64,000 nucleotides of DNA from Antedon mediterranea. Lineage: Eukaryota > Echinodermata > Crinoidea > Comatulida > Antedonidae. The translations under genes and the position numbers were made by a program. The notes under the pieces were generated by a model. That model did no database searches and was not told the origin of the DNA. It saw nothing but the letters and a program-made list of their open reading frames with translations. The DNA lies in the NCBI RefSeq assembly GCF_964355755.1, contig NC_092670.1, positions 21,451,201-21,515,200 on the forward strand, read 5' to 3'. Of this stretch, positions 2,279-45,454 are shown piece by piece. The stretch's first letter is position 1; each line of letters begins with the position of its first letter.

Positions 2279-5200
2279 ATGGAGTTGAGAGTAGGAAATA
2301 AATACCGTCTTGGTCGTAAGATTGGAAGTGGATCTTTTGGAGACATTTATTTGGGTAAGGAAATTGATTTTAACCTTTGAACTATAACAGGTAAAATGAA
2401 TATGAATGATATTCATAATTGTATACTATATTATTAAACTAGTCCTGACTAACCGCTTTGTCACTCATGACTCTGGACGGCTAATGCAAGGATAGGCCTA
2501 TGGCTAGAGACATTACCCATTAATTACCAATTCTATTTAATAAACGGTAGCAACAGCACCTGTAAATATTGTGGGACTGTAAACTGTAGTGTAAACAGTC
2601 ATTGGTAATTATTGTTTTGCACCTGACGGGCAGTTTTAAAATAGAGCTTAGGGTTTTCCCAGTCGTCCGTGTGAATATCGCCTTCAAATATTTAGCCTAC
2701 TCCTAATAAAGACAATGTAATTAAGTGTTTTAACCCATTGACCCCTAAGTTTATTTTGCTCCCCTGGGACCCAAAAAGCATATGTCATATAATTAACCCT
2801 AACTTTTTTTCTAAACACAGACATTAAAAAAATTAAAAAACAAAAATAATGCAAAGGACATTTTATTTCCAAATATTTTATCAAATTTTTGTTACAACTT
2901 ATTTTGGCGGAGTATGGATTATGCAAATTTTAGAAATATTTTTGGAAAATTATTAAAAATTTGTAATTTATCTTTGACTACCAAATGCACAAAAATTAAT
3001 AAATATTTCATAATAAAACTCATCTCTTCATCAGAACCTATTTCTTCTTTTCAAAATAAGACCAAACTTGACCATTATGAATGACCGGTTTCGAAATTAT
3101 GAAGAAATTAGTAGACTGACTCATCCGACGATGACCATATGGGGCCTAGGCCTATCGGGAGCCGCCCCGAGAGCGTCGTCGCCGCTGTTTGTTCACCGGG
3201 AATGTTAAAAAAAACATCCCGAAAGCGACTTGGAATTCGGGATTCTCACGCGCACCGGCATCCCTCGGGAGCTTAGTCCGCTGTTTTAGACGTGTAGCTT
3301 GCAGAAAATTTGACGAAAATGCGTCGAAAACTTATGAAATTAAAACAAGTTTGGTATCAAAATGTTTGTCAAAAGTTATGCTTCAATAAACTGACCTTTG
3401 CGCAGAGTTTGAACAAATATTTCATGCCCATAATGCATCTGACATGTCAGGGTTCATATTACAATCAAAGGTAAACAATATGGCGCGGCCCTCGTGAGGA
3501 CATCTTCACGACTTTTCTCCGGTAGAAAAATCACATTTTTACATGGAAATATGACGATTTAGACACTGTAACTGATACATAATCTTTATTTATTATACAT
3601 TTATTGTATACAAGCTTCAAAATAGTGATTATTAGAAATAAAGATGGATTTTAGACGATTTTACGTTGTATGTTTAGGCCTAGATTCATTCAACGCGCCT
3701 GTCGCGTTTCGAACAGCGTGCTTCGAAAAACGGTTATATTTTCAAATTTTATTTTCAAACTAACTTCAACAATTGTTTTTATATATTTAGAAGCATATTT
3801 TTTAAAAAAAAGTTGAGTATTTTGTATAATTTGTTGTTACAATTCATGCACAGCAAACTGCGCATGTAAATTCGATTTACTTTTTTTTTGTTGATAATTT
3901 GTTTACAATGACCTTGACTTTTAACCTTTTGAGCGCTTTAAGCGCTTATCGTGGTGAATCGGTTAAACCATTTTCTTGTTTACAAAAATCTAATCATTTT
4001 TTAATACAACACAATGGTAATAAATTGAATTTGAATTGTATTGTATCATCCATTATAGGAATAATCAATTATATCCAGATTGGTATAGTTAATTGTATTC
4101 CCTGCACTAACAATAACGTCTCATATTCACATAAAACATATGCTGCGGGCCACCAGTAATTTCAGTCAATATACAGTACTATTCAGAACATGGTTTGTCT
4201 ACCTCTTTGTCTGTCATTACAATTTACTGATATATATATGAATATCAATTAATATCAGACATTGATATGAGCCACACCTAGACAGAAAGTACTGTGTATT
4301 TACTATGACAACTACTATAATAAAACAAGGAAATTCCAAATAAATTGTAAACAATATAATGTGATACTCTTGTGTGTTATTATGAAGTGTTCAGACGCAT
4401 AAAGAATACTGTATATATATTATAATAATTGTACTTGTACTGTGACAAAGAAGCAAATTCCAATTGTATTATTTGTTTAAAATGTAACTAACAAAATAAT
4501 AATAGACTGGTACTTTTATTGTATTATGGAGGATTTAAAAATAGTTAATTGTACTACTTTCACTCGAGATAAAGTTGTACCAATTAAATGCAGTCGGTGA
4601 ACTTCTAAATAATTAAATTTATCTGTTCATTAAACTAAATAGGATAAATTAGTTTTTAATGCCATTCAAATTCTGTAAATAAGCGAGTAATATAATATCT
4701 GATTTAATTATTAATTACTTGAATAATAATGAGATTATTGTATAATATTTTGTCTTTTCCTTCCTTCTTCTAGGTACGAATATAACAAATGGAGAGGAAG
4801 TTGCAATTAAGTTGGAATGTATCAAAACAAAACATCCACAATTACACATAGAGAGCAAATTCTATAAAATGATGCAAGGAGGAGGTACATATTTTTACAT
4901 TTTGTTAATGTACTCGTGCGAATATGAGCATTTTCTAAATATTTGTATAGGGTATTTATTGTTTATGAGATTACTGGCGCTAATTGTAGCTTCATGTGAA
5001 CACTGCTTATTGAATGCTAGCTTCATGTGAACACTGCTTATTGAACACTAACTCTAGCTTCATGTGAACACTGTCTACCAACCGACCAATCTCTCTCTAT
5101 TTTAAGATAATCAAATAATATGCGTAAATGAAGCATTAAGATACATTTTACCTTTCCCTGACCTTTGGTTGATATTCATCTTACAAAATGCCTTGCTTCA

Positions 5201-11200: not shown

Positions 11201-14200
11201 TTTTGGTATGAAAGAAATAAGCATCTTCATTTGTCACAGTTTATAAAAATAAACATTTGGAGCAGGATGTTATATCTACAGTATCACCTCTGTTTAAAGA
11301 GATAAGGCTGCATTATTATTTTTTTCCACAATTGTTTTAAAATTATATATTGTAGGTTTTGTTTTTATACTGAATAAAAATTAAATTTGACTTTAATTAA
11401 ATCAATGTCTGTGTTACTATAGCTATATTGCTTGTATCCATGGGAAGATAATTTACTTTCTCATTGCCTCTTCTTTTGAGTGTCATTGGTCTTACTGTAT
11501 TATTACACATGTGCGCGATAAAAAATATTAATTCCAAGGTAATGCGTTAGACCGTCTCCCATTGTTCTGATCATCTACAATAACTATATTTCATGTTATT
11601 TTTTTATTTACAGTGGGGATACCAACAATAAAATGGTGTGGAGCAGAAGGGGATTACAATGTAATGGTGATGGAGCTATTAGGACCTAGTTTAGAGGATT
11701 TGTTTAACTTCTGTTCCAGAGAATTCAGTCTTAAAACTGTTCTACTATTAGCAGACCAGCTGGTAAGTTAAGAATGCAGGTATTGCAGAACTAAATTTGT
11801 TGGCCTACATTATAACTGGCTGTAGGGGTGGAACTTGTTGACTTCAGGCCTACTCAACTAAGAGTTTCCCATTTATGCTTACAACCCATATACTATTTGA
11901 TTAGAATTCGTGTTCAACAGCTAACCATGCACTTGTTTTTAAAAATTTACAAATTTGGCAAAAAATAAAATTGGCAGCCTTTCAGCAGTTTTGCGAAAGG
12001 AAAATTGACCTTGGCGTAAGCGTAGCAACCCCAGTTTGTTAACTAATGAACACTAAATCATGTGAAAGAAATTTATTTATTTATTCTGTCTTTATACTGA
12101 ATGACACTTTTAGTGCTAGAGCATTGATTTCCAAAGTGGTTCAGTAGAGAACATTAACAATAATAAAAATATTCAATAACAAATTTACATTAGTAGTACA
12201 CACACATTTACAAAAAGTAAACAATATCTACAAAACATAGAGGATATAAAAAATGAAAGGTATTCAAGGTAAAATTTACTTAATACTTAATCAGTAATAT
12301 TTTGAATTGAATTTTTAAAAGTTGAAAGTGTCAATGATTTATAGTTTGTTTTTGTGTCAATTGAAAAAGGGGAAAAAAACAATAAATCATACACACTCAC
12401 ATTTTTATACTGGATAGTTCGGAAAAGTTATATAACTTGAATTGAATAGTGTTAAGGAGTTGATTGAAATGTTAAGGCCCCATTTATTATTAATTGGATT
12501 TCTTTGAATCATTAGAGAGAAAGTTGGAGACAGTCATTAAATAATTTCCTAACATTTTTGTTTAATTACTAGTAATGAGTTCATAGAAATTACACCTTGT
12601 AATGGAAATTGAAATTAATGAAACCTTTCCACAGAATTTATTTTGTGACATTTATAAAATTTAATTTTAAAAAAATAACCGTCCTCAATACAAATGATAA
12701 TGCATTAAATATAAAACATATTCCTAAGTACTACGTCTGTATTTGAAATGCTAGTGGTAGGCTATTTCTCGGTTTGTTTTTTCCTTCATACGTTTGATTT
12801 ACTCCTAACTGAAAATATTATATCAAGGAAGCGGAATTGGGTTCCGATGAGTATGATTACCAACTGTTCATGCTAAATAAATCAACGAGAAAATAAATAA
12901 ATCTATTGTTTATGATGCTTCATTTATTCAACTACCTGTACTCAAACATCTTAACAATAGCTTAAATATCATTGGCTGTAAGAAGTGTAAACCGTAATTA
13001 TATAAGCATTGTTTGAAATCTGAGAAAATATTCACCTATTGTTACAGCACAATGTTGCATAATAACAATGCAATTAGCATAATTAACTAACTCCTATTTT
13101 TGTAGTTCAAACTGATTATTGGCTAATTGTGTCATTTGTGCCAATACAGTAGAATATGTATAAATTCTTATTTTGTGTTTCTTAAACCTATTCAACAGAG
13201 ATGCCGGAGTATCAGCTCCTTTTTGTACATGCAGGAATTTTGGGGAATTTTGTACTATGTACATTGTTGTACATGTAAGCATGATTAATATGTCTTCCTT
13301 TTGATAACAAAGAGAAATGACTATTCAATTTGGCATTAACAAACTACAGGCTTAGTCTTAACTTTATAGTTTGGTTTTTAATATTAAATGCAATGTACAA
13401 TACATTATTCAACTATAGTTGAAGGAAATAGTCAAGTAGATATTTTATTTTAAAATAGCATACTGTACATTATAGCATTTACTGTTAAAATAAAGAATAT
13501 ATTTTATAATTTTTAACTTTACTGGTCACTTTTTTTGCTTAAAATTGGACATTTTTTACAGTAAAATAAAGAATATATTTATAATTTTAATTGTTGTACA
13601 CAAAAACTTTACCGGTCACTTTTGCTAGATACAGTAAAGTACCGTATATTTCGGTGTATAAGTCGCACCTGTGTATAAGACGCACCCCCTAACTGAGAGT
13701 AAAATATCGGTATTTTTTATATCGTCGATGTATAAGACGCACTTTATATTTCATCAAAACAATGTTTTTTTTAAATTGTAATCAATATTATTGTAATAAT
13801 ATATTGTTATATCTACAACGGAGTCCTTTATTTAGGGTTTTTCTTACCTAGGCTCGGCCGCACCCAGCCTCAACAAGCCTAACTTGTTATTCATGAGTTT
13901 CGCCGCAACATCGAGTGCATGACCGTGTGTTACACGCACGTGTGGGCTAGCCTCGCTCAATCATTTCGAGAGGGCGCACATTTTCACGGACAATCGTATT
14001 CGATTATTATCTATGTATCCAAGAAGTGTATACGCTAGGTCCATGCTATAATCAACTGGAGAATATACTAGTCGAATACCATAGACCATGTGGCCGCCAA
14101 GAAGGGCTTGCGCTGGGGGTACGGCGGTCTGCGATCGTGCGTATAACTATAAACAAATACTAGGCCTAGTAGTAGGCTAGGCCTATTCCAATCGTAAACG

Positions 14201-17200: not shown

Positions 17201-20200
17201 TGTGTAGACAGAGCTTTAGGCGAGGTTACCCAGTATACATTTCATACTGTAGCTTATGATACACTCAATAACCTCCCCACGAATTGTCTATGTACTGAAA
17301 ATAGAAAAGACAAAATAATGTGTTCAAAGCATTTTAAAATCATTCTTTCTTTGTCTTTGATTTTATTACAGTAGGTTAATTCTTATACCCACTAGTACCA
17401 GTAGCATTTACAAACTGTAGGCGTTTTAATTACTACTCCTTTATAAAAGGTCACTGTTTTTGCATATCCATATAAAAAAGAAAAAATAGCACTGTGGTTT
17501 TATGGTTGATACATTCTGGGAAAATGTAAGATTTCAACAAGAGAACAAAGTAGAAACACTACAAAATTGAGTATGAACATATGCCATATTGTGAAGTTTT
17601 AATACATTTGTGATTTCATAATCTTTTTCAATTCGGTTCAATGACATTTATTTTGACCAAAATCTAATATGTACATTTACAAGACAACAGCAAAATTTAA
17701 AAAGTATGATTTGGTCGAGGTACTACTACATCAACACAGTTACAAGTTTACCACTGACCCCTCTCCTCATAGACACTACAAATTAAAGATTTACATGGCG
17801 TACAATTTTACACATGTTCAATGTGCATCTTGTTTTTATAAAATACTTGTACATAAACACAGTTACAAGTTTACCACTGACCCCTCTCCTCATAGACACT
17901 ACAAATTAAAGATTTACATGGCGTACAATTTTACACATGTTCAATGTGCATCTTGTTTTTATAAAATACTTGTACATAAACACAGTTACAAGTTTACCAC
18001 TGACCCCTCTCCTCATAGACACTACAAATTAAAGATTTACATGACGTACAATTTTACACATGTTCAATGTGCATCTTGTTTTTATAAAATACTTGTACAT
18101 AAACACAGTTACAAGTTTACCACTGACCCCTCTCCTCATAGACACTACAAATTAAAGATTTACATGGCGTACAATTTTACACATGTTCAATGTGCATCTT
18201 GTTTTTATAAAACACTTGTATATAAACACAGTTACAAGTTTACCACTGACCCCTCTCCTCATAGACACTACAAATTAAAGATTTACATGGCGTACAATTT
18301 TACACATGTTCAATGTGCATCTTGTTTTATAAAATATTTGTATATAAACACAGTTACAAGTTTACCACTGACCCCTCTCCTCATAGACACTACAAATTAA
18401 AGGTTTACATAACGTACAATTTTACACATGTTCAATGTGCATCTTGTTTTTATAAAATACTTGTATTTCCTTGATGGGTTGCGGACAAATATGTGTTACA
18501 ACATCTTGACTGATTTTTCTCAAACAAATAAATGAAACCAGTTATCTTATTTTGTTCTTACAGATTAGCAGAATTGAATATATCCACTCTAAAAACTTCA
18601 TCCATCGAGATGTCAAGCCAGACAACTTTCTGATGGGCCTAGGAAAGAAGGGCAATCTAGTATATATTATAGACTTTGGTCTGGCTAAGAAATATCGAGA
18701 TTCTCGCACACACCAGCACATACCCTATAGGGAAAATAAAAATCTCACAGGCACAGCACGGTATGCTAGTATAAATACGCATTTAGGAATAGGTGAGCTT
18801 ATGTTTCCTTTATCTTATATACTGACTCTGGAGAAAGCTTGGCATTTCGTGCCTAGCTTACTTCTTACCTAAATAAACCAACAATAGCCTTTTCTCCTCA
18901 AAGAGTGAGATATAACTTGAAAAGTAGACATTTTAATTGAATACCCCCTCCACAAATGTTATAGTCCATGAACTATGCCCTCAGGTGGGAACCTCCCCAC
19001 AAATCACCATCATCGTTTTTCACTCTGGTGAAAGCCCTGCTCTTTGAATATTAAAGTGAAACATTTGTTAATACCAAAATAAAGTATTGATAGTCCATAT
19101 ACAGGTTTCACACTAAATAAATTATCTTTGTATGTAAATTGAATGATGATTAAAATGTATTAATGTAATTAATACATATATGTACTGTAGCTCCTTATTA
19201 AATTTTTTTTTTTTCAGAACAAAGTCGGAGAGATGACTTAGAATCCCTAGGTTATATGCTAATGTACTTCAACCTAGGGAGCTTGCCATGGCAAGGTTTA
19301 AAGGCTGCCACTAAACGTCAAAAATATGAGAAAATCAGTGAAAAGAAGATGTCCACACCCATTGAAACGCTCTGTAAAGGCTATCCTTGTAAGTATAGTG
19401 TTGATTGAGGCTTGCCTTCTTTACGTTATACATTTCATTATCAATGTATATACATTATTATCATCTAACATACATATTATGTAAGATGTTGTTGACTTAC
19501 ATACTGCAGTACATTTCTGTACTGCAGTAATTAGAATGTTACATACTACTAACTCAATGCATTAACCATCTGCTTTTTTCTCAGATTTCTTCTCTTTCCA
19601 TTCAGCTTTTTATTTCATTCTTCATTACCATAGATTGCACATTCTCCACACGAGTGAGTGTCTTCTCCATTGCAGTGTCTTTGTGTTCAGCTGTGAACCC
19701 GCTTTCTTCTTTGGCAAAACGTTATGGTTTTCCTTTAAAATAATCTCCACCCTTCTTTTCTGTTTTTTTCTTTTACAGCGGAGTTTTCAACGTACCTTAA
19801 TTACACGCGGTCCCTCAGATTCGACGAAAAACCCGACTATTCATATCTACGACAATTATTCCGGAACCTGTTCCATAGACAGGGTTTCACTTACGATTAT
19901 GTCTTTGACTGGAATATGCTGAAATTTGTAAGTACCTCATCCGCCCCTTTCGTTGATTCATTTGTGCACTTTAACGACACTGCGCTATTTTTATATGTTC
20001 CGCATCCACAGCTGAATTTACCACCTTCCTAAACAACTGTCGTTCCTTGCGCTTCGAAGATAAACCCGACTTCTCCTATCTCAGACAACTGTTCAGAAAC
20101 CTCTTCCATAGACAAGGATTTACCTACGACTATATGTTTGATTGGGCTATGCATAAATTTGTAAGTATATACCCATTCAGCCCGTCCACTACCAATCATG

Positions 20201-23200
20201 CTATGGTTTGAATAATTGTATTAGGGGTGCGATTATACCTAATATTGTCATGATAATGTGTTCATGCCCTCTAAAGTTATTTTCAATAGTCCACTGAGCT
20301 AGTTTTAGTAAACTAATTGTTTTCAGTGCTTGTTATGATTTGAACTGAGACTTTACTCTAATCAAGTATATCAACCATTAATTAGAAATGGGAAGGATGG
20401 AATGTAGTTTCAAATACTATTTAATGTTAACAATGCATTTTATTTTTATACTACATTGTATGTCACGGTTTTGATATGTTTAATAAACCAAAGAGTATAT
20501 CAGACTTTAATACTATATCTTTGCTCTTGCAGGGTGGCCGTCCTAACGATGACAGCAGTAGAGAGGTACGTGATCGTGATGGTAGACACCATCCTAGGAG
20601 TTCAACAACGAGGGCGCTGATGGGCACGGCAACTGGACGCGCCAATGCCCAAGCGGGTGGTGCTTCCAATGCTGCAAACGCCATGCAAGGTTTGCCTGTT
20701 TTAAAATTCTTTTTACTATATATCTGCCTACCCTCTCAATTCTTGGGTTTTGGTTCTATTCAATTATTTTTACTACCGTATTTTCCGGAGTATAGGTCGA
20801 GACTTTGTGGGAAAATTTTAATTGCAAAATCGGGGGGTCGACTTATACTCCGACCATGCGATTTTTGAAAAAAATCAGGCCGAAAAAATATGTTCAAAAG
20901 CCGTCAGCTGTCAAGGCCCAGCAAGGTCAGTGGCCTATCATCAATCACTCACAGAAGTTTTCAATTTAATACCTACATTGTACAAAATAATACAACTCCA
21001 ACAAGTACTGGTCAATAAAATATTAATATATCACAATGACTCATTTTGATGTTAATATTACGCTTTTAAGATAATTAAGAATAAATAGTTTTCTTTATGC
21101 TTCTTATTCACTCTCGCGAAAACATCGTAACACACACCACAGACGTCGGAATGTCCATGCAGCATGTTTGTTATTGCGCGATATTTTCATTTATACACAT
21201 GCGCAGTTTGTTTGTTTGTTCGTAATTACAATTACTGCGCATGTCTATTCATAAAATAAATTCTCCTTAGTCGGGCGCGTGTACATTTACAGATAACGCG
21301 ATTTACAACTACTCGCCTGTACATTAATAAGCCTCCTAACGGAAAACTCGTTTTAATTTATTCGAGTGACGCGAAAAACATCGCTGATGGCAAGTAACGC
21401 TACATCGCTGTCATTTATTATAGGCTGGTGAAGACGGCGGCGAAGTCGTCGTCATTACGTCCGTCCGATATTGATTAGGCCTACACTTTAATAATACAGT
21501 ATAAACAAATAACCACATTTCATACATTTCTAGCCCTCTTTGAACTTTAAAGTAAGTTGTGTTATTAGCCGATTTTGGGGGTCGACTTATATTCAGGTCA
21601 TACCAAAATCAACGATATTCTAGGCCAAAGTTGGGGGTCGACTTATACTTGGGGTCGACCTATACTCCGGAAAATATGGTACTGGTGTGTTTTTTACAGG
21701 TAAGTACAGTACAGACATTTTGGCAAAGTAAAGCACACTATAAATCTGTACATTTTTGGCTTAGAATAGAAAGAATATCAAAATATTACTAGTCTATGAA
21801 AAACAGCTTGTCCTTCATTCTTACTAGATATTAGTCTAGTTTTCATGCTTGTTTATATATCCAGAGGGCGACAACATGCCGTTTAAAAAATAAGGAATAA
21901 AATAAAAATCAACCTGTCAACTATGAAGTTTGACCTATTGACCTCTCATTATCTATGTTTTTCTTTCATACTTTAATGATATTTTTGCCTATCCTTTTTT
22001 AGCCTATAATAAATCGCATACTACCACAAGAGCTAGCAAAAGTAATACCACTGGTTTAGAAGCAGGAGGGGGTAGACATTTAGGCCCTAGGAGATCTGGC
22101 AGATTGGATCGTTTTTAAGCTCAACAATAGCAAGATTTAGACAATTGTAGCATCAAGGTGTCGGCAAGAATAGGACAGTTGTAGGCTCAATATTCCAGGC
22201 AAAATAGGCCAGTTGTAGGCTCAGGATACCAGGCAAAATAGGACAGTTGTAGGCTCACAATACCAGGCAGATAGACAAGTTATAGGCTCAAGAACCAGTC
22301 TGTGTAATCTACCGGAATAGAGATGTTCTAGCCACAATGAATGTTCGATTTCGGCCAGCATAGGAGGTCTCAACTTGGGTAGACCAGGTTTTAGTTGAGC
22401 CAGTATAGAGCAGTTTTATGTAAACAACCTTAACCAGTATAGAACTGCAGTTTGCATTCTATATTTTGTTTTAATGCTATATATTATTTAAATTTAAAAT
22501 ATTTAAATATATTATTTGTTTAGCCATTATTTATAAATTGTGAATGTAAGTTTTAGAATGATGTTTTTTGGGATTTTGTAAATAAAATACTTAAAATTGA
22601 TACTGTATTTACAAAATTGTACAGTATATAACAATTAACTGTATACTAGCTATAATAAATTATTAATAAAACAGTATTTATATTATAATTATTTAAAATT
22701 ATCCCAAGTTAATAGTTTCTTGGGCGGTAACATTTTTATCTCGCCAACATAAAATGTATCTTGTCTAATTTGATGTTTTGTTTAAAAAATAAATTAGATT
22801 TTCTTATATGATGAGTGTTATTTGATCTAACATAATTAGAAAATGTCCTTGGTTCATTAGTTCAAAATGCAAATTAAATCATGAATATTCATGACCATTG
22901 TGTGACAGCTTCATAAATGAGTACTACAGCATTACCAATTGTATTATTCCATGGTCATACACAAACAGTACTGTAGTTTGCAATTATTAGTGTTCGCTAG
23001 ACTGTGACAGTCGAGTAAAGACACTGTTTTATAATCTAAATTATATCCACTACCAAACCTAATTAACATATTGGATACGCTCAAGTAATCAGGACATTGT
23101 ACCCTGGTTTGTTAAGCCATCTTTCAGTGAATACATAATATGAATTTCATTTTAAAGGGTTTACTGCACAACAAGGATATTTGTATGTGTTTGCATTAAG

Positions 23201-23882
23201 TAGATCTCAATCCTTCATTAGAGCTTTACTCCATGATTAGAGCCTATATATAGCACATATATAGCACCATATAATAGTTGATTATTTAATTAATTTTATG
23301 TATGTTAGAAAACTGAAGACTACTATATTTAAATGTGAATAATTTTATTTTAGTTCTTGCTACATTATATATTATTTGTAGTTTGTATTGTTTTTTTGTG
23401 TGTTCTATTTGTCTGCCAAAAAATAATGCTAGGTAGGCACACAATGCATTAAACTACATTAGTTATTTTAGGCCCTGGTAAAATTAGCTGTGTCTATACT
23501 AGTCTGTTGGGGCTGTTATCACGTTTTAATTTTGACCTCATTGTGAAATAATCAAATTTATTTTGGCATACATGTTTAAGTAGTAAACAATGTTGGTTGT
23601 GTAGAGTTTTTGTCATATTTCTTTGCTATTTTTTTCCTAGGAACTTCACCACGGCCAATATCAAGAGCAGAGGCACAAAGGTCAGTCAGTAGACGGCTGC
23701 ATAGAGGCCAAGCAAGTGCCCAACTAGGAGGCAGTGCTGACCCTATGCGGCGTGAAGGAACCAGGCTAACAACGCCTTACTCTGCAATGAATGGTGCCGC
23801 CAATCCTCCGCTTCGACCTGCAGACCTTCCACGAGAAGATGGCACATCAAGAACTGCTTCGTCACGTTATCTCCGAAAATGA
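2279..23882 (+). CDS. CSNK1E: Casein kinase 1 delta/epsilon (serine/threonine kinase)
   Basis: Coding exons are 2279-2354, 4774-4884, 11614-11762, 18564-18792, 19218-19388, either 19779-19927 or 20012-20160, 20533-20689 and 23641-23882. All have GT/AG borders and compatible phases, giving 427 residues (human delta and epsilon are about 415). The kinase domain shows the glycine loop [11 protein letters not shown] (from Gly16), Lys38 in [17 protein letters not shown] (catalytic Asp128), [12 protein letters not shown] and the CK1 signature of the [14 protein letters not shown] region. Residues 296-427 form a basic, Ser/Thr-rich tail containing TSPRPIS and RRLHRG, typical of the autoinhibitory delta/epsilon tail. 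Several details ([23 protein letters not shown]) are closer to epsilon than delta; a pre-duplication ancestor gene is equally likely. CK1 delta/epsilon phosphorylates PER, Wnt and DNA-damage substrates. Introns 2 and 3 are each about 6.8 kb and full of mobile elements. The unusual feature is the duplicated exon 6. Confidence 0.97.
3145..3500. other. GC-rich patch in CK1 intron 1
   Basis: Within the otherwise AT-rich first coding intron, 3150-3280 is strikingly GC- and CpG-rich. At 3478-3490 there is an ATATGGCGCGGCC stretch resembling a YY1-type site. It could be an alternative promoter or an enhancer, or an old insertion. No exon is evident. The rest of intron 1 (2355-4773) shows nothing I can name. 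Confidence 0.3.
4774..4884 (+). other. CSNK1E: CK1 coding exon 2
   Basis: Acceptor ttcttctag precedes it and donor gtacat follows. It completes Gly26 and encodes [14 protein letters not shown] and [11 protein letters not shown], including the ATP-binding Lys38. Listed separately because it lies 2.4 kb from exon 1 and 6.7 kb from exon 3. Confidence 0.95.
4985..5078. repeat. Short tandem repeat, about 3 copies
   Basis: agcttcatgtgaacactg occurs three times at about 30-40 bp spacing just inside CK1 intron 2. No function is apparent. Confidence 0.7.
5725..6330. mobile_element. Short-TIR MITE candidate in CK1 intron 2
   Basis: TTAAAGACACTGGA near 5725 is mirrored by AGTGTCTTTAACTGG near 6318-6332, enclosing about 0.6 kb with no coding potential. 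Only the short termini match, so this is a candidate rather than a firm call. Confidence 0.4.
7651..7790. mobile_element. MITE copy, GCTCTGTCTACA family
   Basis: It begins AAGCTCTGTCTACAATATCA and contains the same 'gatgtgcccaaatgtggtag' phrase as the copies at 1-85 and 17098-17217. Its right terminus has decayed (TGTAGACATTG), so it is an old copy. Confidence 0.7.
9009..10547. mobile_element. Non-autonomous inverted-repeat DNA transposon, 1.5 kb
   Basis: The left end TAAAGGCCAATTTACA at 9009 matches, inverted, TGTAAATTGGCCTTTA ending at 10547. A further matching pair, TACAGTACAGAAAGAAA at 9053 and its inverse ending near 10409, shows that the arms are long. The interior is filled with CTACGAAG/CGTAGG motifs in both orientations. 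A 37-codon basic reading frame starts at ATG 9487 ([13 protein letters not shown]...), but I do not recognise it. No clear target duplication is visible. It sits in CK1 intron 2. Confidence 0.65.
10205..10345. repeat. Tandem repeat of ~22-bp units (acaatacatcgtagg)
   Basis: At least six copies of acaatacatcgtaggctacga-like units, degrading to acaatacatcgtaggagag at the right. It lies inside the 9009-10547 inverted-repeat element and is probably an internal expansion of it. Confidence 0.8.
10897..10915. repeat. Poly(C) run, 19 bp
   Basis: A homopolymeric run of 19 C in CK1 intron 2; length polymorphism or assembly error is likely here. The stretch 10548-11613 otherwise holds nothing I can name. 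Confidence 0.9.
11614..11762 (+). other. CSNK1E: CK1 coding exon 3
   Basis: Acceptor tttatttacag and donor gtaagt. It encodes [29 protein letters not shown] and [10 protein letters not shown]: the N-lobe beta strands, the hinge and the start of the C-lobe. Confidence 0.96.
12068..12290 (-). repeat. Retroelement 3' end (antisense), second copy
   Basis: It begins with TTTA units and then shares gatttccaaagtggttcagt with the copy at 558-720. It lies in CK1 intron 3. The family is unknown and the right boundary is approximate. Confidence 0.5.
13641..14490. mobile_element. TIR element (ACCGTATATTTCGGTGTATA ends), 850 bp
   Basis: The left terminus ACCGTATATTTCGGTGTATA, continuing into AGTCGCAC, is repeated inverted at 14463-14490. 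Internal phrases such as tgtataagacgcac repeat the terminal motif. A TA dinucleotide overlaps both ends, which may be a target duplication. There is no transposase. It is similar in design, but not in sequence, to the element at 20775-21680. It lies in CK1 intron 3. Confidence 0.75.
15671..16753. mobile_element. hAT-like non-autonomous element, 1083 bp
   Basis: The left end CAGGCCTCGAATTT is matched by AAATTCGAGGCCTG at the right end. The flanks carry a direct repeat CAAGCA (15665-15670 and 16754-16759). If the two following bases are counted, the match reads CAAGCACA, though the alignment is then shifted. The CAGG start suggests hAT; the apparent 6-bp duplication is shorter than the usual 8 bp. 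The left part has repeats of CCAAGGCCA. No transposase reading frame is seen. Confidence 0.6.
16940..17020 (-). repeat. LINE-like 3' tail fragment (antisense)
   Basis: ttcagtatactttattcatc resembles the antisense 3' end of CR1/Rex-type LINEs, and a related phrase (ttcaatgacatttattttg) occurs at 17637-17656. Short and uncertain. Confidence 0.3.
17098..17217. mobile_element. Complete MITE, 120 bp, GCTCTGT...ACAGAGC ends
   Basis: It runs from AAGCTCTGTTTACACTATCA to GATAGTGTGTAGACAGAGCT. It is the best-preserved of three copies in this window and has no coding capacity. Confidence 0.75.
17690..18470. repeat. 123-bp minisatellite, six copies, in CK1 intron 3
   Basis: The phrase ttacaagtttaccactgacc recurs at 17740, 17863, 17986, 18109, 18232 and 18354, so the period is 123 bp (122 in one unit). 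Copies are nearly identical. Since 123 is divisible by 3, one frame stays open for 243 codons on the plus strand. The array ends less than 100 bp before CK1 exon 4 and lies wholly in an intron, so I read it as non-coding. Confidence 0.95.
18564..18792 (+). other. CSNK1E: CK1 coding exon 4 (catalytic loop and activation segment)
   Basis: Acceptor tgttcttacag and donor gtgagc. It encodes [21 protein letters not shown], with the catalytic Asp, then [12 protein letters not shown] and [15 protein letters not shown]. The substrate-recognition arginine of TARYAS (the position mutated in the hamster tau allele) is present. Confidence 0.97.
19218..19388 (+). other. CSNK1E: CK1 coding exon 5
   Basis: It follows a T-rich tract ending in ttttcag and ends at gtaagt. 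It encodes [18 protein letters not shown] and [20 protein letters not shown], ending CKGYP plus the first base of a serine codon (phase 1), as both exon 6 copies require. Confidence 0.97.
19779..19927 (+). other. CSNK1E: CK1 exon 6A (canonical copy of a duplicated exon)
   Basis: 149 nt, acceptor ttcttttacag, donor gtaagt; residues 246-295. It reads [15 protein letters not shown] then [15 protein letters not shown] and [12 protein letters not shown]. The last motif is the usual CK1 delta/epsilon sequence at the end of the kinase domain. It is followed after only 84 bp by a second copy with the same length and phases, so the two are candidates for mutually exclusive splicing. Confidence 0.93.
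20012..20160 (+). other. CSNK1E: CK1 exon 6B (variant copy of a duplicated exon)
   Basis: 149 nt, acceptor gcatccacag, donor gtaagt, no internal stop. It reads [15 protein letters not shown] then [15 protein letters not shown] and [12 protein letters not shown]. It differs from 6A at 10 of 50 residues (positions 4, 6, 9, 10, 16, 17, 21, 42, 46 and 48 of the cassette). Most are conservative, but Asn to Ala and Leu to His in FDWNMLKF are not. It has intact splice sites, preserved phase and mostly conservative changes, so it looks functional rather than a decaying copy. Confidence 0.9.
20533..20689 (+). other. CSNK1E: CK1 coding exon 7 (proximal tail)
   Basis: Acceptor ttgctcttgcag, donor gtttgc. 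It encodes [19 protein letters not shown] and [19 protein letters not shown], the charged start of the regulatory tail. It ends with one base of a split codon (phase 1) that fits either the downstream exon at 23641 or the alternative exon at 22003. Confidence 0.93.
20775..21680. mobile_element. TIR element (ACCGTATTTTCCGGAGTATA ends), 906 bp
   Basis: The left end ACCGTATTTTCCGGAGTATA, then GGTCGA, is mirrored at 21655-21680. The flanks carry ACT at 20772-20774 and 21681-21683, consistent with a 3-bp target duplication. Internal gggggtcgacttata phrases repeat the terminal motif. There is no transposase. It lies in CK1 intron 7, upstream of the alternative last exon. Confidence 0.75.
22003..22118 (+). 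CDS. CSNK1E: Candidate alternative last coding exon of CK1
   Basis: Preceded by a long pyrimidine tract (atttttgcctatccttttttag). Joined to exon 7, the split codon becomes Ala and a 38-residue tail follows ([17 protein letters not shown]..., ending RRSGRLDRF) before TAA at 22116-22118. AATAAA lies 463 bp downstream. The isoform would be 385 residues, lacking the [13 protein letters not shown] tail of exon 8. The tail is basic and Ser/Thr-rich, but I do not recognise it. Human CSNK1D also has alternative C-termini, which makes the idea reasonable. Support is from splice signal, phase and poly(A) signal only. Confidence 0.5.
22120..22290. repeat. Degenerate ~35-40 bp tandem repeat
   Basis: About four copies of 'acagttgtaggctca' followed by 'ataccaggcaaaata'. 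If the alternative CK1 last exon is real, these lie in its 3' untranslated region. Confidence 0.75.
22581..22586 (+). terminator. AATAAA poly(A) signal for the alternative CK1 transcript
   Basis: Canonical hexamer in gtaaataaaatact, 463 bp after the alternative stop codon and 1.05 kb before the last canonical exon. Confidence 0.4.
23641..23882 (+). other. CSNK1E: CK1 coding exon 8 (canonical last exon)
   Basis: Acceptor tttttttcctag. It encodes [29 protein letters not shown] and a Ser/Thr-rich end, ASSRYLRK, with stop TGA at 23880-23882. The TSPRPIS...RLHRG block is shared with the tails of vertebrate CK1 delta and epsilon. Confidence 0.94.
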
Positions 23883-24535
23883 CTAGATAAATATCAGATA
23901 TCACCAACTTCAAAAACTATTTTGCGGGAGTAATCATTGTACGGATGATGAAAAACGTATCAACCAATCCGATTCAAGCAGACTTATGGCTGTGTTTTAT
24001 ATCCTTGCCTTCTATAACGCTTCCTGCTATTGGTTGAATATTTTTCATCTGCAATGAATTAAACCAATTGGTTTGAGAATGAACTTCAGAGAATGCCTGA
24101 AGCTGCCATGCAATATTAAAGGACATCTTTTATTGGTTGAGATGGATCTCCAGGTTACCCATCATCTGACATGCCTGTTTGTGTTTTAGCAGCAAGGTGT
24201 ACTTGAATGGTATGAATTTGAGACCCTGGATGACATCTTGAAGGAGGATAAGTGAATGAAAATTGAATGTTGTGTATACTAAAAACATTGCAATGTAACA
24301 AGTTAAATGAATATTTTAAATATTCAACTGACGTTACTACAAATTGTATAGCTCTTTCTGTAGCAATGGCTGCAATACACATTGTACGATAGCAGTTACA
24401 GTAGTTACAAAAGATCGACCGCTATAACCATGTTGTTTACATTACAAGTTCTGCAGTAACTGCAGTAGACATTCTCCTCCTATATTGATTAAATAACCAG
24501 ACTTTATATAGCGAGATTGTGTATAATACTGCTTT

Positions 24536-27574: not shown

Positions 27575-30500
27575 TTAAAAAAAGGCAAGATTAAAAGCTT
27601 CTCGCTGTTTCACCAGCATTACTGTACATAGAATCGGGTTTCCTACTTTGTTTGGTTTAGCTGCAAATCCTGCTACATTCTCCAATTGCGTGATGGTGCG
27701 TTGGTTAGGACATACATTGTTTCTTTCCATATCTATCAGTATCTTTACCACGTAGTCGTAGTTCCTCTGTGTATGTGCTGCCGATATCAAAGCATTGTAC
27801 AATGGCTGTGTTAGTTCATCTCCAGAAGCCTACAAAAGAAATCGTACTACAGTATATGCCAAAAAAATACCCTTTACATCGCACCTTTAGATTGCTTTAT
27901 AAACATGGGCAGGCATGGTTCTGTAATTTCAGGTTAGAACCATACAGCATAGGTTACTTACATTTTGTCGCACAAATAACAAATTTCCAATCTTTGTTTT
28001 TGTATAAATTATGAACACTTCAGCTATTAGATCCACTTTAATGAAATTTTTTTTTTTACCTTGACATCTGAAAGTAATTGAAGACCGTCTTCTTCTTGCC
28101 TACAGCCTGATGCCAATGCAACATAAGTCCTTGTTGTAGGGTACAACCCTTTATTCTTTATATCAACAAGAAGAGCCTTGGCTCCTTCAAGATCCTTCCG
28201 TTTTGTTCTCTTCCTAATTAGCATATTGTAGAAATCTATGTCAACTTTAACCTCCAGATCATCAATCATTTTCAACAATTTGGTTTCAGCTTTTAGACTT
28301 CTTGGTATGACCTCAGTCAGAAGTGTCAATGTCTTGCAATCTGGTTTGACATCATTTGATGTCATGCTATCTACAAGACCTTCTGTGCCACCTAGCAAAG
28401 ACAGCCGATCAGCAGGTCTTTCCATGGCAGTTAAAGACATAACTCCATCAAGATTTGGACTCAAAGACAACATATTTGGAATACTTTTACTGGTTCTTTT
28501 ACCACTTATTGGAACTATGTCATTTAAGGAACTATTATCAATTTCCGTCGCAGATTCAGATAAATTTGAAAGAAATTTATCTTCTTTTTGTACAGGTCTA
28601 GTGTTCATCATTTGAATGTCAGAACCTTTTCCAGAGTTGCTTTCATTCTTAGAGATATTAATCAAAAATAAATCTGGGTATTTGGAAGAATTGACAGTTC
28701 TCTGATCAGCAATCTCCAAAACATCCATTTCTAACCTCTGTTGCTGTCCTTTCAGAAGCGTCTGACTTCTTTTTTGTTTAACCTGTGATGCATCTAACAT
28801 CTTATGCTGCAGAGTAGTGCTGCTTAGAAGAACCTTATTGGCAGTCTCCAGATCACCTATTCCACAATCTCGCACAATTCTAAGTAACAAGTTGTAGGTG
28901 ATGATGTTTGGTTTGATTCCCTTTAGTAACATGTGTCGCCAACCCTTTAAAATAATTGGAAAATAAGAGTTTGAAATTAATCTATTGTTGAAACATGGTT
29001 TTTGTTAACCTATGTGTGTGTATGTACATATTAAATAAAGAAATTAGGTGATGTTACAACTTGGCAGGAATAGAGGACATTGTATAAATTATATTGTTCA
29101 ATTTGTTTTAATCTTTAGTTCATTCTAATCTTGTAATTGAGGCAAGTTGTCATCGGCCTAGATTAGATATCTTGACTGCAAAATTGATTTGATATGTTAT
29201 ATAGATGAAGCTCAATAATATACTGTCTGACACCTTGGGATGGCCTAACATATCTGATTTTATGGAAAGTCTGGTATACCGTAAAAGGATTTGGGAAGTT
29301 TTAGACTTTGAAAAGTCTTGTTTTGGGAACGTTTATTTGAAAAATAATTTGTATAATTGAACCTCAATAGCAAACAGAAAACCAGCTTCCTTGTTGGATG
29401 CACAAGCAAAGAAAAGAAACACAAAGCTGTCCACGCTGACTTTAACACCAGACTGAAGTAGATGATGAAAGAGTTGAAAAGATGTTTGAACATCACCACA
29501 TTTAGCATAAGCTTTCATCATAGCGTGATGGGTCACCAAGTTGATCTTCACTTCTTTCTCTCGTAACTGTCCATGTAGTTTCTTTAAGCGCATAAGACCA
29601 TCTGTTTCCGGCCAAGGGGACTCTGCACATGCATTGAATAAGGCTGTGTATGTTGCTCCAGTCGGCTGCAGACCACGTTTTTTCATCTGGAGGAAAAACA
29701 AATGTCTATGTACAGTATTTCAATATATTTATGATTTATACATTTGATAATCAGATGACCACTTCATGAAGAAGGGACACAATAATCAGACTGATCACAA
29801 GATATAATCCAGGCCTTGTCTTTTGAAAATTATAGGTGTGCTACAAGTTGCACTCCTCAATACATTCAGGGGTGCTGTAGGTGTGCTGTTTGTAGTATGT
29901 TGGTGTGTAAAAGTTTACCAAATTTAAGCGTGTTGTAAATCGCACTCCTCAAGGGCAATTTAGGAGCGTGTTAGGTGAATGATCGCACTTGCTCGCCTTA
30001 AAAGACAAGGCCTGATAAACACAGCTTACAGGACCATAAAGAAAAACCCACTTATGACAAGTACAAAATGGCCATCTTTTCAAGACCGACATGATCGTCA
30101 TTAACTTAAGATGTCGCCCTCAACTTACATCATTGTATAAGTGGAATGCTTTCTTAGTGTAGCCAGCTCGTCCACAACCGCCAATGAGTACATCATAGTT
30201 ATATGCTGTTGGTACAACATTATCCTCTTTTAACATCCGTATTTCAAGAACTGCTAAAGCTTCTTTAAGCTGTGAAGAATACAAATTTACTGAGTTACTT
30301 TGGCTAGTCTTGGAATAAATGTTTGGATTTCTTTGCTGTCTAATAGGCAGTTAATTAAGTTGATATCGTAAGAACCCCAGTGGCAGTATTCATACTTGAC
30401 ATTAAGCTACTTACAAATGTCCAAAAACATCCTAACATTGATAATGTTGTGTATGGTTTAAAGAACCTATTTCATATAAAAAAACTTTTCTTGCAATTAG

Positions 30501-31242
30501 TTTGATTTAAAAGTCTATTTTCCATGGACCATAGAGATATTATAGTGATCTCTATGCATGGACTAACCTAAGGGAAAATACTTATACTTAGGCAGCTGCA
30601 GGCTACCGTAGTATTTTGGGGAAATATTTTACTAAGTGTGAGTGAATACAGTCACTGGTTCCTATATTTAGAAGTATATACATTATTCAAACCTTTCCTT
30701 TCTTCAGAAGTTTTTTCATCTGATTACTGTACCAAATTGGGCTGTTTTTACGCCCACTATAGAAACGTTCCTTATCACTGTCTTCCGCATTGTTTTCTTC
30801 TGATACTTCATACACTTCTTCGAACGTCTTTAACTGAAAATATAAAGTTGATCAATTTTGTGAATTATACCATATACTTCATAAAATTACTGTACTTTTC
30901 ACTACCCTGGGATTTTAAGGTTACTGTTGTAAGTACCTCATATTCATCTTCAGTTTTTAGGGTTCCAAACCTATCTTCTTCGGGTAGATTCTGCACATCC
31001 CATTCATCACTGTATCTATGGATCATCACTGCCTCCTTTCTTGCTTCGTCACTGTTGCCTTCAGGACTATCTGCTGTATTGATTGTAAACGTCCTAGTAT
31101 ACTTTGCAAACAAGGCAGTATATTTGGTGGATTTCAAGTACTGTACCGAATAACTTTGCAATACTGCAAATATTGATGGACGTGATGTTGCAAAATATCT
31201 TGATGACAGTGAAGTGATTATATTCCGTATTGGAAACGCCAT
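27575..31242 (-). CDS. PTCD1: Pentatricopeptide repeat-containing protein 1, mitochondrial
   Basis: Six exons with consistent phase-0 borders: 30937-31242, 30693-30833, 30129-30269, 29363-29686, 28060-28944 and 27575-27829; 683 residues (human about 700). The start [20 protein letters not shown] looks like a mitochondrial presequence. Residues 85-102 carry the EDRFGTLK block. Exons 3-5 hold the PPR array, with [37 protein letters not shown] and [19 protein letters not shown], all characteristic of PTCD1. A long low-conservation Ser-rich insert (about residues 335-480) is followed by further PPR motifs ([44 protein letters not shown]). PTCD1 acts in mitochondrial RNA metabolism and large-subunit 16S rRNA stability. 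The acceptor of exon 5 (attattttaaag) is weak in pyrimidines, so that junction is the least certain. Confidence 0.92.
29810..30014. mobile_element. MITE, 205 bp, CAGGCCTTGTCTTTT ends
   Basis: CAGGCCTTGTCTTTT at 29810 and AAAAGACAAGGCCTG ending at 30014 are exact inverted termini. It lies wholly in PTCD1 intron 3 and contains repeated GTGTG/GCACTCCTCAA phrases. No protein. Confidence 0.75.
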
Positions 31243-31859
31243 TTGTAGTCCAAGTCTCCTCCCGTTTTAAAAAACCTTTTTTTTATAAAAAAAAATATAC
31301 AGTCAGTATTTAGTCTTGGTTATTTCTTGAAATTTTGAAGTATTACTATTTTAATATGTTATTCTTAGTCTGAGAGTATATCAATTGCATTGTATTTCTA
31401 TAGGTACGTAACTAGGCCTAGCTAGGTTTTGCATTGTTGGTGGCGGTGTTTGATTATATATTAATTAAAAGAACAGTAAAAAAGACTTTAAAAAAAAAAG
31501 AGTAAACCATATAAACATAGCCTTAATCCTACGTTTACTTTACGAGTAAGTAGGCCTCTGTCGCGTAAATGTCTTTCCCCATCTTTATACTCAAAATAGC
31601 TCTACTATCTAGGCCTAGAGGCTAGACAAGAGGGTCAGCCCTTAGCTAGGTTACGGTAGGCGCTACTTTGCTCTGGCTGCCTATCCTTCCTAACTAGCTA
31701 TCCTACTAGCTAGGCCTAGGGCCTAGCCTCCTGAGGAGATATGCATCATTCATACTAATGACTTATTATAGGCAATAGAAATAAAATAGGAAGTTATTAA
31801 CTGATGTGATAAAGGCATAACTTAATCTGTACATATTAAACATGCAAGATTAGCTGCAG
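31243..31859. promoter_or_regulatory. PTCD1 upstream region with TAGGCCTA clusters
   Basis: This is the PTCD1 promoter side. It holds an A-rich tract (31260-31300) and, at 31550-31740, many overlapping copies of TAGGCCTA/GCTAGG, a palindromic motif also dense at 56920-57215 and 62450-62540. No defined element is resolved. Confidence 0.35.
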
Positions 31860-32095: not shown

Positions 32096-33620
32096 TTTAG
32101 CACAGTGTTTTACTATATAACCAGATAAATAATAGGAAACATTTAATAATTTGATAAATGACATTTAAATAGCAATTTAGGTAAATGTCTTTTGAAATGA
32201 AATTAAATAAATTATAACCAATTTGGTTAGAGTAAAACACAATGATAAAGAATAGGAAACATTTAATAATATGATAAATTACATTTACATAGCAATTTAG
32301 CACTGTGTTTTACTATAACCAATTTGGTTAGAGTAAAACACAATGATAAAGAATAAGAAACATTTAATAACATGATAAATGACATTTAGCAATTTAGCAC
32401 TGTGTTTTACTATAACCAATTTGGTTAGAGTAAAGCACAATGATAAAGAATAGGAAACATTTAATAACATGATAAATGACATTCACATAGCAATTTAGCA
32501 CTGTGTTTTACTATAACCAATCAGATTAGAGTAAAACACAATGATAAAGAATAGGAAACATTTAATAATATGATATATAACATTTACATAGCAATTTAGC
32601 ACTGTGTTTTACTATAACCAATTTGATTAGAGTAAAACACAACGATAAAGAATAGGAAACATTTAATAACATGATAAATTACATTTACATAGCAATTTAT
32701 CACTGTATTTTACTATAACCAATTTGGTTAGAGTAAAACACAATGATAAAGAATAGGAAACATTTAATAATATGATAAATTACATTTACATAGCAATTTA
32801 TCACTGTGTTTTACTATAACCAATTTGGTTAGAGTAAAACACAATGATAAAGAATAAGAAACATTTAATAACATGATAAATGACATTTACATAGCAATTT
32901 AGCACTGTGTTTTACTATAACCAATTTGGTTAGAGTAAAGCACAATGATAAAGAATAGGAAACATTTAATAACATGATAAATGACATTCACATAGCAATT
33001 TAGCACTGTGTTTTACTATAACCAATCAGATTAGAGTAAAACACAATGATAAAGAATAGGAAACATTTAATAATATGATATATAACATTTACATAGCAAT
33101 TTAACACTGTGTTTTACTATAACCAATTTGATTAGAGTAAAACTCAACGATAAAGAATAGGAAACATTTAATAACATGATAAATTACATTTACATAGCAA
33201 TTTATCACTGTGTTTTACTATAACCAATTTGGTTAGAGTAAAACACAATGATAAAGAATAGGAAACATTTAATAATATGATAAATTACATTTACATAGCA
33301 ATTTATCACTGTGTTTTACTATAACCAATTTGGTTAGAGTAAAACACAATGATAAAGAATAGGAATTTAATAATATGATATATAACATTTACATAGCAAT
33401 TTAGCACTGTGTTTTACTATAACCAATTTGGTTAGAGTTAAACACAATGATAAAGAATAGGAAACATTTAAAAATATGATAAATGACATTCACATAGCAA
33501 TTTAGCACTGTGTTTTACTATACCAATTTGATTAGAGTAAAACACAATGATAAAGAATATGAAACATTTAATAATATGATAAATTGCTAGCACTGTGTTT
33601 TACTATACCAATTTAGTTTT
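32096..33620. repeat. Left array of ~100-bp palindrome-bearing units (about 15)
   Basis: Each unit holds GTGTTTTACTATAACCAA directly followed by its complement TTGGTTAGAGTAAAACAC, a near-perfect 37-bp palindrome, then gataaagaataggaaacatt and a tatgataaat-rich spacer. Units differ by a few substitutions and small deletions. They are inverted relative to the right array. Confidence 0.93.
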
Positions 33621-37419: not shown

Positions 37420-39765
37420 ATATAATATTTTGCTATGTAAATGATATCATATAATAAATGTTTCATTATCATTGTGTTTTACTGTAACCAAATTGGCTAT
37501 AGTAAAACACAATACTAAATTTGTATGTAAATGTATCATATTATTATATGTTTCCTATTCTTTATTTGTGTTTTACTGTATCCAGCACAGTGCTAAATAT
37601 CATTTATCATAGTTAAAATGTTTTACTCTAACCAAATTGGTTATAGTAAAACACAGTGATAAATTACTATGTAAATGTCATTTATCATATTATTAAATGT
37701 TTCTTATTCTTTATCATTGTGCTTTACTCTAATCAAATTGGTTATAGTAAAACACAGTGCTAAATTTCTATGTGAATGTCATTTATCATGTTATTAAATG
37801 TTTCCTATTCTTTATCATTGTGTTTTACTCTAACCAAATTGGTTATAGTAAAACACAGTGCTAAATTGCTATGTAATGACATTTATCATATTATTAAATG
37901 TTTCCTATTCTATATCATTGTGCTTTACCATAACCAAATTGGTTATAGTAAAACATTGTGCTAAATTGCTAGCTATGTAAATAATCATTATTATTAAATG
38001 TTTCCTATTCTTTGTCATTGTGTTTTACTTTAACCAAATTGGTTATAGTAAAACACAGTGCTAAATTGCTATGTAATGACATTTATCATAATTATTATTA
38101 AATGTTTCCTATTCTATATCATTGTGCTTTACCATAACCAAATTGGTTAGAGTAAAACATGGTGCTAAATTGCTATGTAAATAATCATTATTATTAAATG
38201 TTTCCTATTCTATATCATTGTGCTTTACCATAACCAAATTGGTTATAGTAAAACACAGTGATAAATTGCTATGTAACTGTCATTTATCATATTATTAAAT
38301 GTTTCCTATTCTATATCATTGTGCTTTACCATAACCAAATTGGTTATAGTAAAACACAGTGCTAAATTGCTATGTGAATGTCATTTATCAAATTATTAAA
38401 TGTTTCCTATTCTTTATCATTATGTTTTACTTTAACCAAATTGGTTATAGTAAAACACAGTGCTAAATTGCTATGTAAATGTCATTTATCATATTATTAA
38501 ATGTTTCCTATTCTATATCATTGTGCTTTACCATAACCAAATTGGTTATAGTAAAACACAGTGCTAAATTGCTATGTAAATGTCATATATCATATTATTA
38601 AATTCCTATTCTTTATCATTCTGCTTTACTTTAACCAAATTGGTTATAGTAAAACACAGTGCTAAATTGCTATGTAAATGTCATTTATCATATTATTAAG
38701 TGTTTCCTATTCTTTATCATTGTGTTTTACTTTAACCAAATTGGTTATAGTAAAACACAGTGCTAAATTGCTATGTAAATGTCATTTATCAAATTATTAA
38801 ATGTTTCCTATTCTATATCATTGTGTTTTACTCTAACCAAATTGGTTATAGTAAAACACAGTGCTAAATTGCTATGTGAATGTCATATATCATATTATTA
38901 AATGTTTCCTATTCTTTATCATTATGTTTTACTATAACCAAATTGGTTATAGTAAAACACAGTGCTAAATTGCTATGTAAATAATCATTATTATTAAATG
39001 TTTCCTATTCTTTATCATTGTGTTTTACTCTAACCAAATTGGTTATAGTAAAACACAGTGCTAAATTTCTATGTAAATGTCATATATCATTATTATTAAA
39101 TTCCTATTCTTTATCATTCTGCTTTACTTTAACCAAATTGGTTATAGTAAAACACAGTGCTAAATTGCTATGTAAATGTCATTTATCATATTATTAAGTG
39201 TTTCCTATTCTTTATCATTGTGTTTTACTTTAACCAAATTGGTTATAGTAAAACACAGTGCTAAATTGCTATGTAAATGTCATTTATCAAATTATTAAAT
39301 GTTTCCTATTCTATATCATTGTGTTTTACTCTAACCAAATTGGTTATAGTAAAACACAGTGCTAAATTGCTATGTGAATGTCATATATCATATTATTAAA
39401 TGTTTCCTATTCTTTATCATTGTGTTTTACTCTAACCAAATTGGTTATAGTAAAACACAGTGCTAAATTGCTATGTGAATGTCATATATCATATTATTAA
39501 ATGTTTCCTATTCTTTATCATTGTGTTTTACTCTAACCAAATTGTTTATAGTAAAACACAGTGCTAAATTGCTATGTAAATGTCATTTATCATATTATTA
39601 AATGTTGCCTCTTCTATATCATTGTGTTTTACTCTAACCAAATTGGTTATAGTAAAACACGGTGATAAATTGCTATGTAATGACATTTATCATATTATTA
39701 AATGTTTCCTATTCTTTATCATTGTGTTTTACTCTAACCAAATTGGTTATTGTAAAACACAGTAT
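37420..39765. repeat. Right array of ~100-bp palindrome-bearing units (about 23)
   Basis: Inverse of the left array: tttcctattctttatcattg, then GTGTTTTACTCTAACCAA directly followed by TTGGTTATAGTAAAACAC, then gctaaattgctatgtaaatg. It is longer than the left arm, so the arms have expanded or contracted independently. Within it, 38590-38900 and 39095-39400 are nearly identical, suggesting a recent multi-unit duplication. Confidence 0.93.
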
Positions 39766-45360: not shown

Positions 45361-45454
45361 TGGTTTAACTGTCGTTAACAACTAGACGACAAACAGAAAC
45401 AATTTTTCCACTAGCCTCTGATAGTTTTTTTCTCTAAAAATCTTCTATATTTCC

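Follow-up and report, generated by a model that had tools for sequence, protein, structure and literature searches.

Mutually exclusive exons within a kinase domain are known from JNK and p38, where substrate binding or specificity reportedly depends on which exon is chosen (PMC8699841, PMC1431701). In both cases, exons 6a/6b of JNK (MAPK8/9/10) and the CSBP1/CSBP2 forms of p38α (MAPK14), the exon pair lies in the catalytic domain of a serine/threonine kinase, as does the pair found in the CK1δ/ε gene of the window analyzed here (the whole stretch of 64,000 nucleotides). These kinases belong, however, to another family, and the choice made in JNK changes 5 to 7 residues, whereas the CK1δ/ε pair changes 10 of 50 residues and spans the entire last part of the C-lobe as far as the junction with the tail. 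The locus also resembles exons 4a/4b of OGDH, where a short intron, whose branch point is less than about 50 nt away from the 5′ splice site, keeps tandemly duplicated exons mutually exclusive (PMC7969005). OGDH is, in contrast, a metabolic enzyme, the system was described in vertebrates, and its branch points were mapped experimentally, whereas those of CK1δ/ε are predicted.

Few animal kinases are as well conserved as CK1δ/ε, which functions in Wnt signaling, circadian timing, and cell division. The L and S forms of CK1α arise from short inserts that are added or omitted, and they are not known to involve duplicated homologous exons. Both are splice forms of a CK1 kinase (PMC7733671; also cited in PMC1431701). 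Across 55 species, the splice variation of CK1δ/ε is located in the C-terminal tail (PMC9794997). The gene studied here is of the same family as vertebrate and insect CK1δ/ε (doubletime), and its splicing, like theirs, would give kinases with different regulatory behavior (PMC9794997), but here it is the kinase domain itself that has two versions. The open-access literature yielded nothing relevant on mutually exclusive exons in CK1 genes, and the published CK1δ/ε variants are those of the tail. This agrees with the initial annotation, which knew of no described case in the family. Mutually exclusive kinase-domain exons are, in short, already known (JNK, p38), but none had been described for the CK1 family in that literature.

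The CK1δ/ε gene and its duplicated exon

The chromosome-scale assembly (354 Mb in 18 contigs) contains one CK1δ/ε gene, two genes of the CK1α type, and one of the CK1γ type, with the α and γ types on C4 and C6. A tektin exon of this genome scored clearly higher against sea urchin tektin than against vertebrate tektin-1 (181 versus 138 bits), a weak hint of an echinoderm or a near relative; no match to cellulose synthase was found, which speaks weakly against a tunicate, and mitochondrial COX1 is absent from the assembly. The exons of the δ/ε gene join without a break, giving an open reading frame of 427 residues with either copy of the duplicated exon. The coding features are as follows.

2279..2354, + strand: coding exon 1 with the ATG start (tblastn match, frame bookkeeping)
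4774..4884, + strand: exon 2 (tblastn match, frame bookkeeping)
11614..11762, + strand: exon 3 (tblastn match, frame bookkeeping)
18564..18792, + strand: exon 4 (tblastn match, frame bookkeeping)
19218..19388, + strand: exon 5, ending in phase 1, with donor GTAAGT (tblastn match, frame bookkeeping)
19779..19927, + strand: exon 6A, canonical version of residues 246-295, 45/50 identical to human CK1δ
20012..20160, + strand: exon 6B, divergent version of residues 246-295, 41/50 identical to human CK1δ
20533..20689, + strand: exon 7, start of the C-terminal tail, common to both versions (tblastn match, frame bookkeeping)
22003..22118, + strand: possible alternative last exon, a 38-residue tail followed by a TAA stop (frame and acceptor site only)
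23641..23883, + strand: exon 8, conserved tail GTSPRPIS...RLHRG and stop (tblastn match, frame bookkeeping)

Exons 1 to 5 match human CK1δ at 232 of 245 residues; the exon 6 part of the human reference used agrees with PDB chains. With this identity, and with separate α- and γ-type genes present, the kinase domain is nearer to CK1δ/ε than to α or γ. The segment RNLFHRQG with N275 and R279, which separates δ/ε from α, is found in both 6A and 6B, whereas the CK1α paralogs of this genome have I and T at positions 275 and 279. The δ/ε tail motif TSPRPxS...RLHRG is also present, exon 8 reading [23 protein letters not shown]. A duplication of the cassette in CK1α or CK1γ was ruled out, as each of these genes has a single version of the exon 6 region; in CK1α, the intron upstream of the matching region differs in position and phase from that of CK1δ/ε. 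A search of the genome for a PERIOD gene gave no match, but the controls gave none either. In the tail region, the candidate last exon at 22003-22118 is phase compatible with exon 7 and would end the protein in ...RRSGRLDRF, and the weak donor of exon 7 (CAAG|GTTTGC) could favor a regulated choice of tail.

The two copies of exon 6 are each 149 nt long, are entered in phase 1 and left in phase 0, and both have CAG upstream and GTAAGT downstream. Of their 50 residues 40 are identical, as are 108 of the 149 nucleotides, and the differences, which number 10, 5, and 26 at the first, second, and third codon positions, are mostly at third positions. The lengths, phases, AG and GTAAGT signals, and 40 identical residues given in the initial annotation proved correct to the base, and the spacing of 84 bp was confirmed by measurement (84 nt). 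The copies are therefore adjacent, homologous, and equal in length and phase, and have intact splice sites.

The ten changes from 6A to 6B are S249T, Y251F, Y254N, T255C, D261E, E262D, Y266F, V287M, N291A, and L293H. They are located at 249-266 and at 287, 291, and 293, adjoining the start of the tail, and leave an identical run of 20 residues (267-286; P of about 0.03 for such a length). The reported clustering at the two ends of the cassette is thus present, but three further changes (D261E, E262D, and Y266F) lie mid-cassette. When the whole genome was searched with the 6A protein, 6B was recovered with an E value of 6e-22, the weaker matches were to CK1α, CK1γ, and more distant kinase genes, and no third copy of the cassette was found in the gene or elsewhere in the genome. 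The flanking introns are only 28 to 40% identical, which is the background level, and this shows that the similarity of 6A and 6B stops at the exon edges.

Age of the duplication and selection on both copies

At the four-fold degenerate sites common to 6A and 6B, only 2 of 11 are identical, against 26% expected from composition. Together with the background-level identity of the flanking introns, this saturation indicates that the duplication is old. The comparison of Ka and Ks proposed in the initial annotation gave a dN of 0.10 to 0.14, whereas dS was not measurable with synonymous sites saturated, and the number of residue changes is far below the neutral level. Indeed, in 5,000 simulations in which 41 random substitutions were placed on 6A, the residue changes averaged 26 and never fell below 18, and a stop arose in 87% of the trials, while the real pair has 10 changes and no stops. 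Judged by these sequence comparisons, both 6A and 6B are under purifying selection.

Polarization with human CK1δ and with the CK1α and CK1γ genes of the same genome placed clearly derived states in 6B at positions 251, 254, 266, and 293 and in 6A at position 255. With derived states at different positions, each copy retains ancestral residues that the other lost, a pattern that would be expected of two working cassettes. Of the two, 6B evolved faster (41/50 against 45/50 identical to human CK1δ).

Splice signals and predicted transcripts

Two further features bear on the choice between the copies.

19569..19778, + strand: last part of intron 5, rich in pyrimidines, containing 13 CU-rich (PTB-like) hexamers and the strong 3′ splice site of 6A
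19928..20011, + strand: 84-nt intervening intron, the shortest among 43 inferred introns

The 43 introns were bracketed in CK1δ/ε and eight other genes; with lengths that are approximate, the next shortest is about 199 nt and the median of the other 42 is 560 nt. Downstream of its donor, the 84-nt intron contains no AG before the terminal one. In TTAAC, the best match to a branch point in this intron, the A is 47 nt away from the 5′ splice site, leaving 37 nt to the 3′ splice site. For a number of mutually exclusive pairs, OGDH 4a/4b in particular, it was proposed that the branch point must be at least some 50 nt away from the 5′ splice site (PMC7969005). Given the short intron and a predicted branch point at 47 nt, below this limit, direct splicing of 6A to 6B is likely to be poor. 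A second, weaker branch-point candidate (TTTAT) is closer to the acceptor (18 nt) and 66 nt away from the 5′ splice site, and its use would relieve the steric block on 6A-6B splicing.

The two acceptors differ strongly. On an approximate consensus score, the 3′ splice site of 6A is the strongest of the gene (10.1) and that of 6B is the weakest (2.6), whereas the two donors score alike and are both weak (TTT|GTAAGT). The 13 CU-rich hexamers in the 210 nt upstream of 6A are the maximum of the window, with at most 9 in any other 210-nt stretch, but this count is only borderline against a first-order Markov null (124/2,000). The predicted fold of the 84-nt intron was no better than that of shuffled sequences (z = −0.27), and pairing between introns was weak or at best marginal when simple shuffles served as the control. 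The locus showed no convincing docking/selector pair, and the RBFOX site TGCATG is absent from intron 5, the 6A-6B intron, and intron 6.

The prediction that including both exons or neither breaks the frame was borne out by the positions of the stops. When both exons are skipped, a stop is reached at codon 250, within the kinase domain. When 6A is joined to 6B, residues 1-295 are followed by LNLPPS and a stop at codon 302, so that the reading finishes in ...[14 protein letters not shown]-stop with the kinase domain complete. Retention of the 84-nt intron leaves 28 codons open in the 6A frame and leads to the same stop at codon 302. Since this stop sits about 130 nt before the next exon junction, nonsense-mediated decay is predicted for the 6A-6B mRNA; if the mRNA survived, it would give a tailless kinase. 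The earlier statement that a functional transcript must choose one copy is correct as to the broken frame but too strong, given that a transcript with both would still specify a complete kinase domain, though one lacking the tail.

Interpretation of the exon pair and other features of the window

The exon structure, the frames, the long-term conservation of both copies, and the asymmetry of the splice sites are established at the level of the genomic sequence. Since both copies are conserved, the intron is short, the branch point is predicted at 47 nt, and the acceptors are asymmetric, mutually exclusive splicing is the best explanation of the locus. It is thus probable that 6A and 6B form a mutually exclusive exon pair derived from an old tandem duplication in a single CK1δ/ε gene. 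The candidate pair of C-lobe exons put forward in the initial annotation is in this respect well supported by conservation, phase, splice signals, and the short intron. The branch-point candidate at 66 nt, the equally weak donors, and the ordinary fold of the intron count against mutual exclusivity.

In the mechanism that we propose, an old tandem exon duplication in the single CK1δ/ε gene would have produced 6A and 6B, and the transcript would run from exon 5 through either 6A or 6B to exon 7, giving two full-length kinases with ten differences in residues 246-295. The 84-nt intron would block splicing of 6A to 6B by leaving too little room between its 5′ splice site and its branch point. With its strong 3′ splice site, 6A would be the default, and repression of 6A, perhaps by PTB-like factors acting on the CU-rich tract, would lead to the use of 6B, although this last step is speculation from motifs.

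Other outcomes for the same sequence were weighed against this exon pair. Double inclusion or retention of the 84-nt intron might provide a third form, a natural tailless CK1δ/ε of 301 residues that is constitutively active. The stop directly after a complete kinase domain fits such a form, solved structures of human CK1δ routinely use constructs that end near residue 294, and the autophosphorylated tail is inhibitory (PMC2651596). We nevertheless consider this form unlikely, given the decay predicted from the position of the stop and a short intron and branch point that disfavor joining 6A to 6B; an open intron of 28 codons is, moreover, not improbable in itself. If such mRNAs are instead destroyed, the frame-breaking outcomes could serve mainly as an off switch, with regulated unproductive splicing setting the amount of kinase, and the stops at codons 302 and 250 are indeed well ahead of later junctions. 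For this purpose, however, one poison exon would suffice, and a second, diverged cassette that retains 41/50 residues of human CK1δ would not be needed, which makes this use of the locus quite improbable.

It is still less probable that 6B is a decaying relic of the duplication that is no longer spliced. Its acceptor is the weakest of the gene, and its identity to human CK1δ is lower than that of 6A and of the rest of the kinase domain (232/245), but both of its splice sites are intact and its exact length was kept, and the simulations, in which stops were frequent (87%), never gave as few as ten changes. An assembly or haplotype artefact is refuted by the divergence of the copies: 41 of 149 bases differ, and the chromosome-scale assembly has each copy at a single place only. 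Nothing was found in favor of this origin, and we regard it as practically excluded.

For the mutually exclusive pair, the cassette forms the last part of the kinase domain (C-lobe, residues 246-295). The roles assigned to residues of the fold follow published work and general background. Residues N275 and R279 are needed for the binding of Dishevelled by CK1ε (PMC2651596). Both lie within the identical run 267-286 and are the same in 6A and 6B, so that the swap would not directly alter this docking site. The altered partner binding suggested earlier would therefore not act directly through the known site (PMC2651596). In the same study, the autophosphorylated tail folds back against the kinase domain, where it blocks substrates (PMC2651596). 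The swap would keep the Dishevelled-docking face and alter the first helix of the cassette and the exit point of the tail. Our best guess is that it tunes the control by the tail or another contact on the same face; tail autoinhibition or the binding of another partner would most likely be affected, and not catalysis.

More tentatively, the pair may be an ancient, clade-wide switch in the kinase domain of CK1δ/ε, with 6A in general use and 6B, with its changed tail junction, specific to tissue or stage, such that one gene would do the job of vertebrate δ and ε and their tail variants; this extension is possible but doubtful. Two natural, long-conserved versions of the C-lobe would amount to a built-in experiment on which surface residues can be changed without losing the kinase. 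They would show whether tail autoinhibition or the choice of partner is under the control of this surface, and so bear on how one CK1δ/ε kinase serves many pathways.

The window also holds neighboring genes and repeat arrays. On the minus strand, 27578-31266 looks like a pentatricopeptide protein (PTCD1-like), 44461-45381 like a single-exon DCUN1D3, and 58310-61552 like TAB1, and on the plus strand, 63095-63442 looks like an LYRM-type protein. In human, CSNK1E and TAB1 are presumably also near each other. Six copies of a 123-bp repeat, 97% alike, occupy 17727-18465, shortly before exon 4 within intron 3. A 101-bp repeat forms two arrays (32213-33584 and 37619-39763), about 4 kb apart, whose consensus units look like mutual reverse complements. 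An array of a 44-bp unit (about 39 copies) spans 50056-51753, and one of a 69-bp unit (34 copies) at 52022-54384 is open in frames of both strands because the unit is a multiple of three. Elsewhere in the genome, the 18S rRNA genes on L010 and L011 are interrupted by the same sequence at the same site, near position 1690, which looks like a site-specific insertion.
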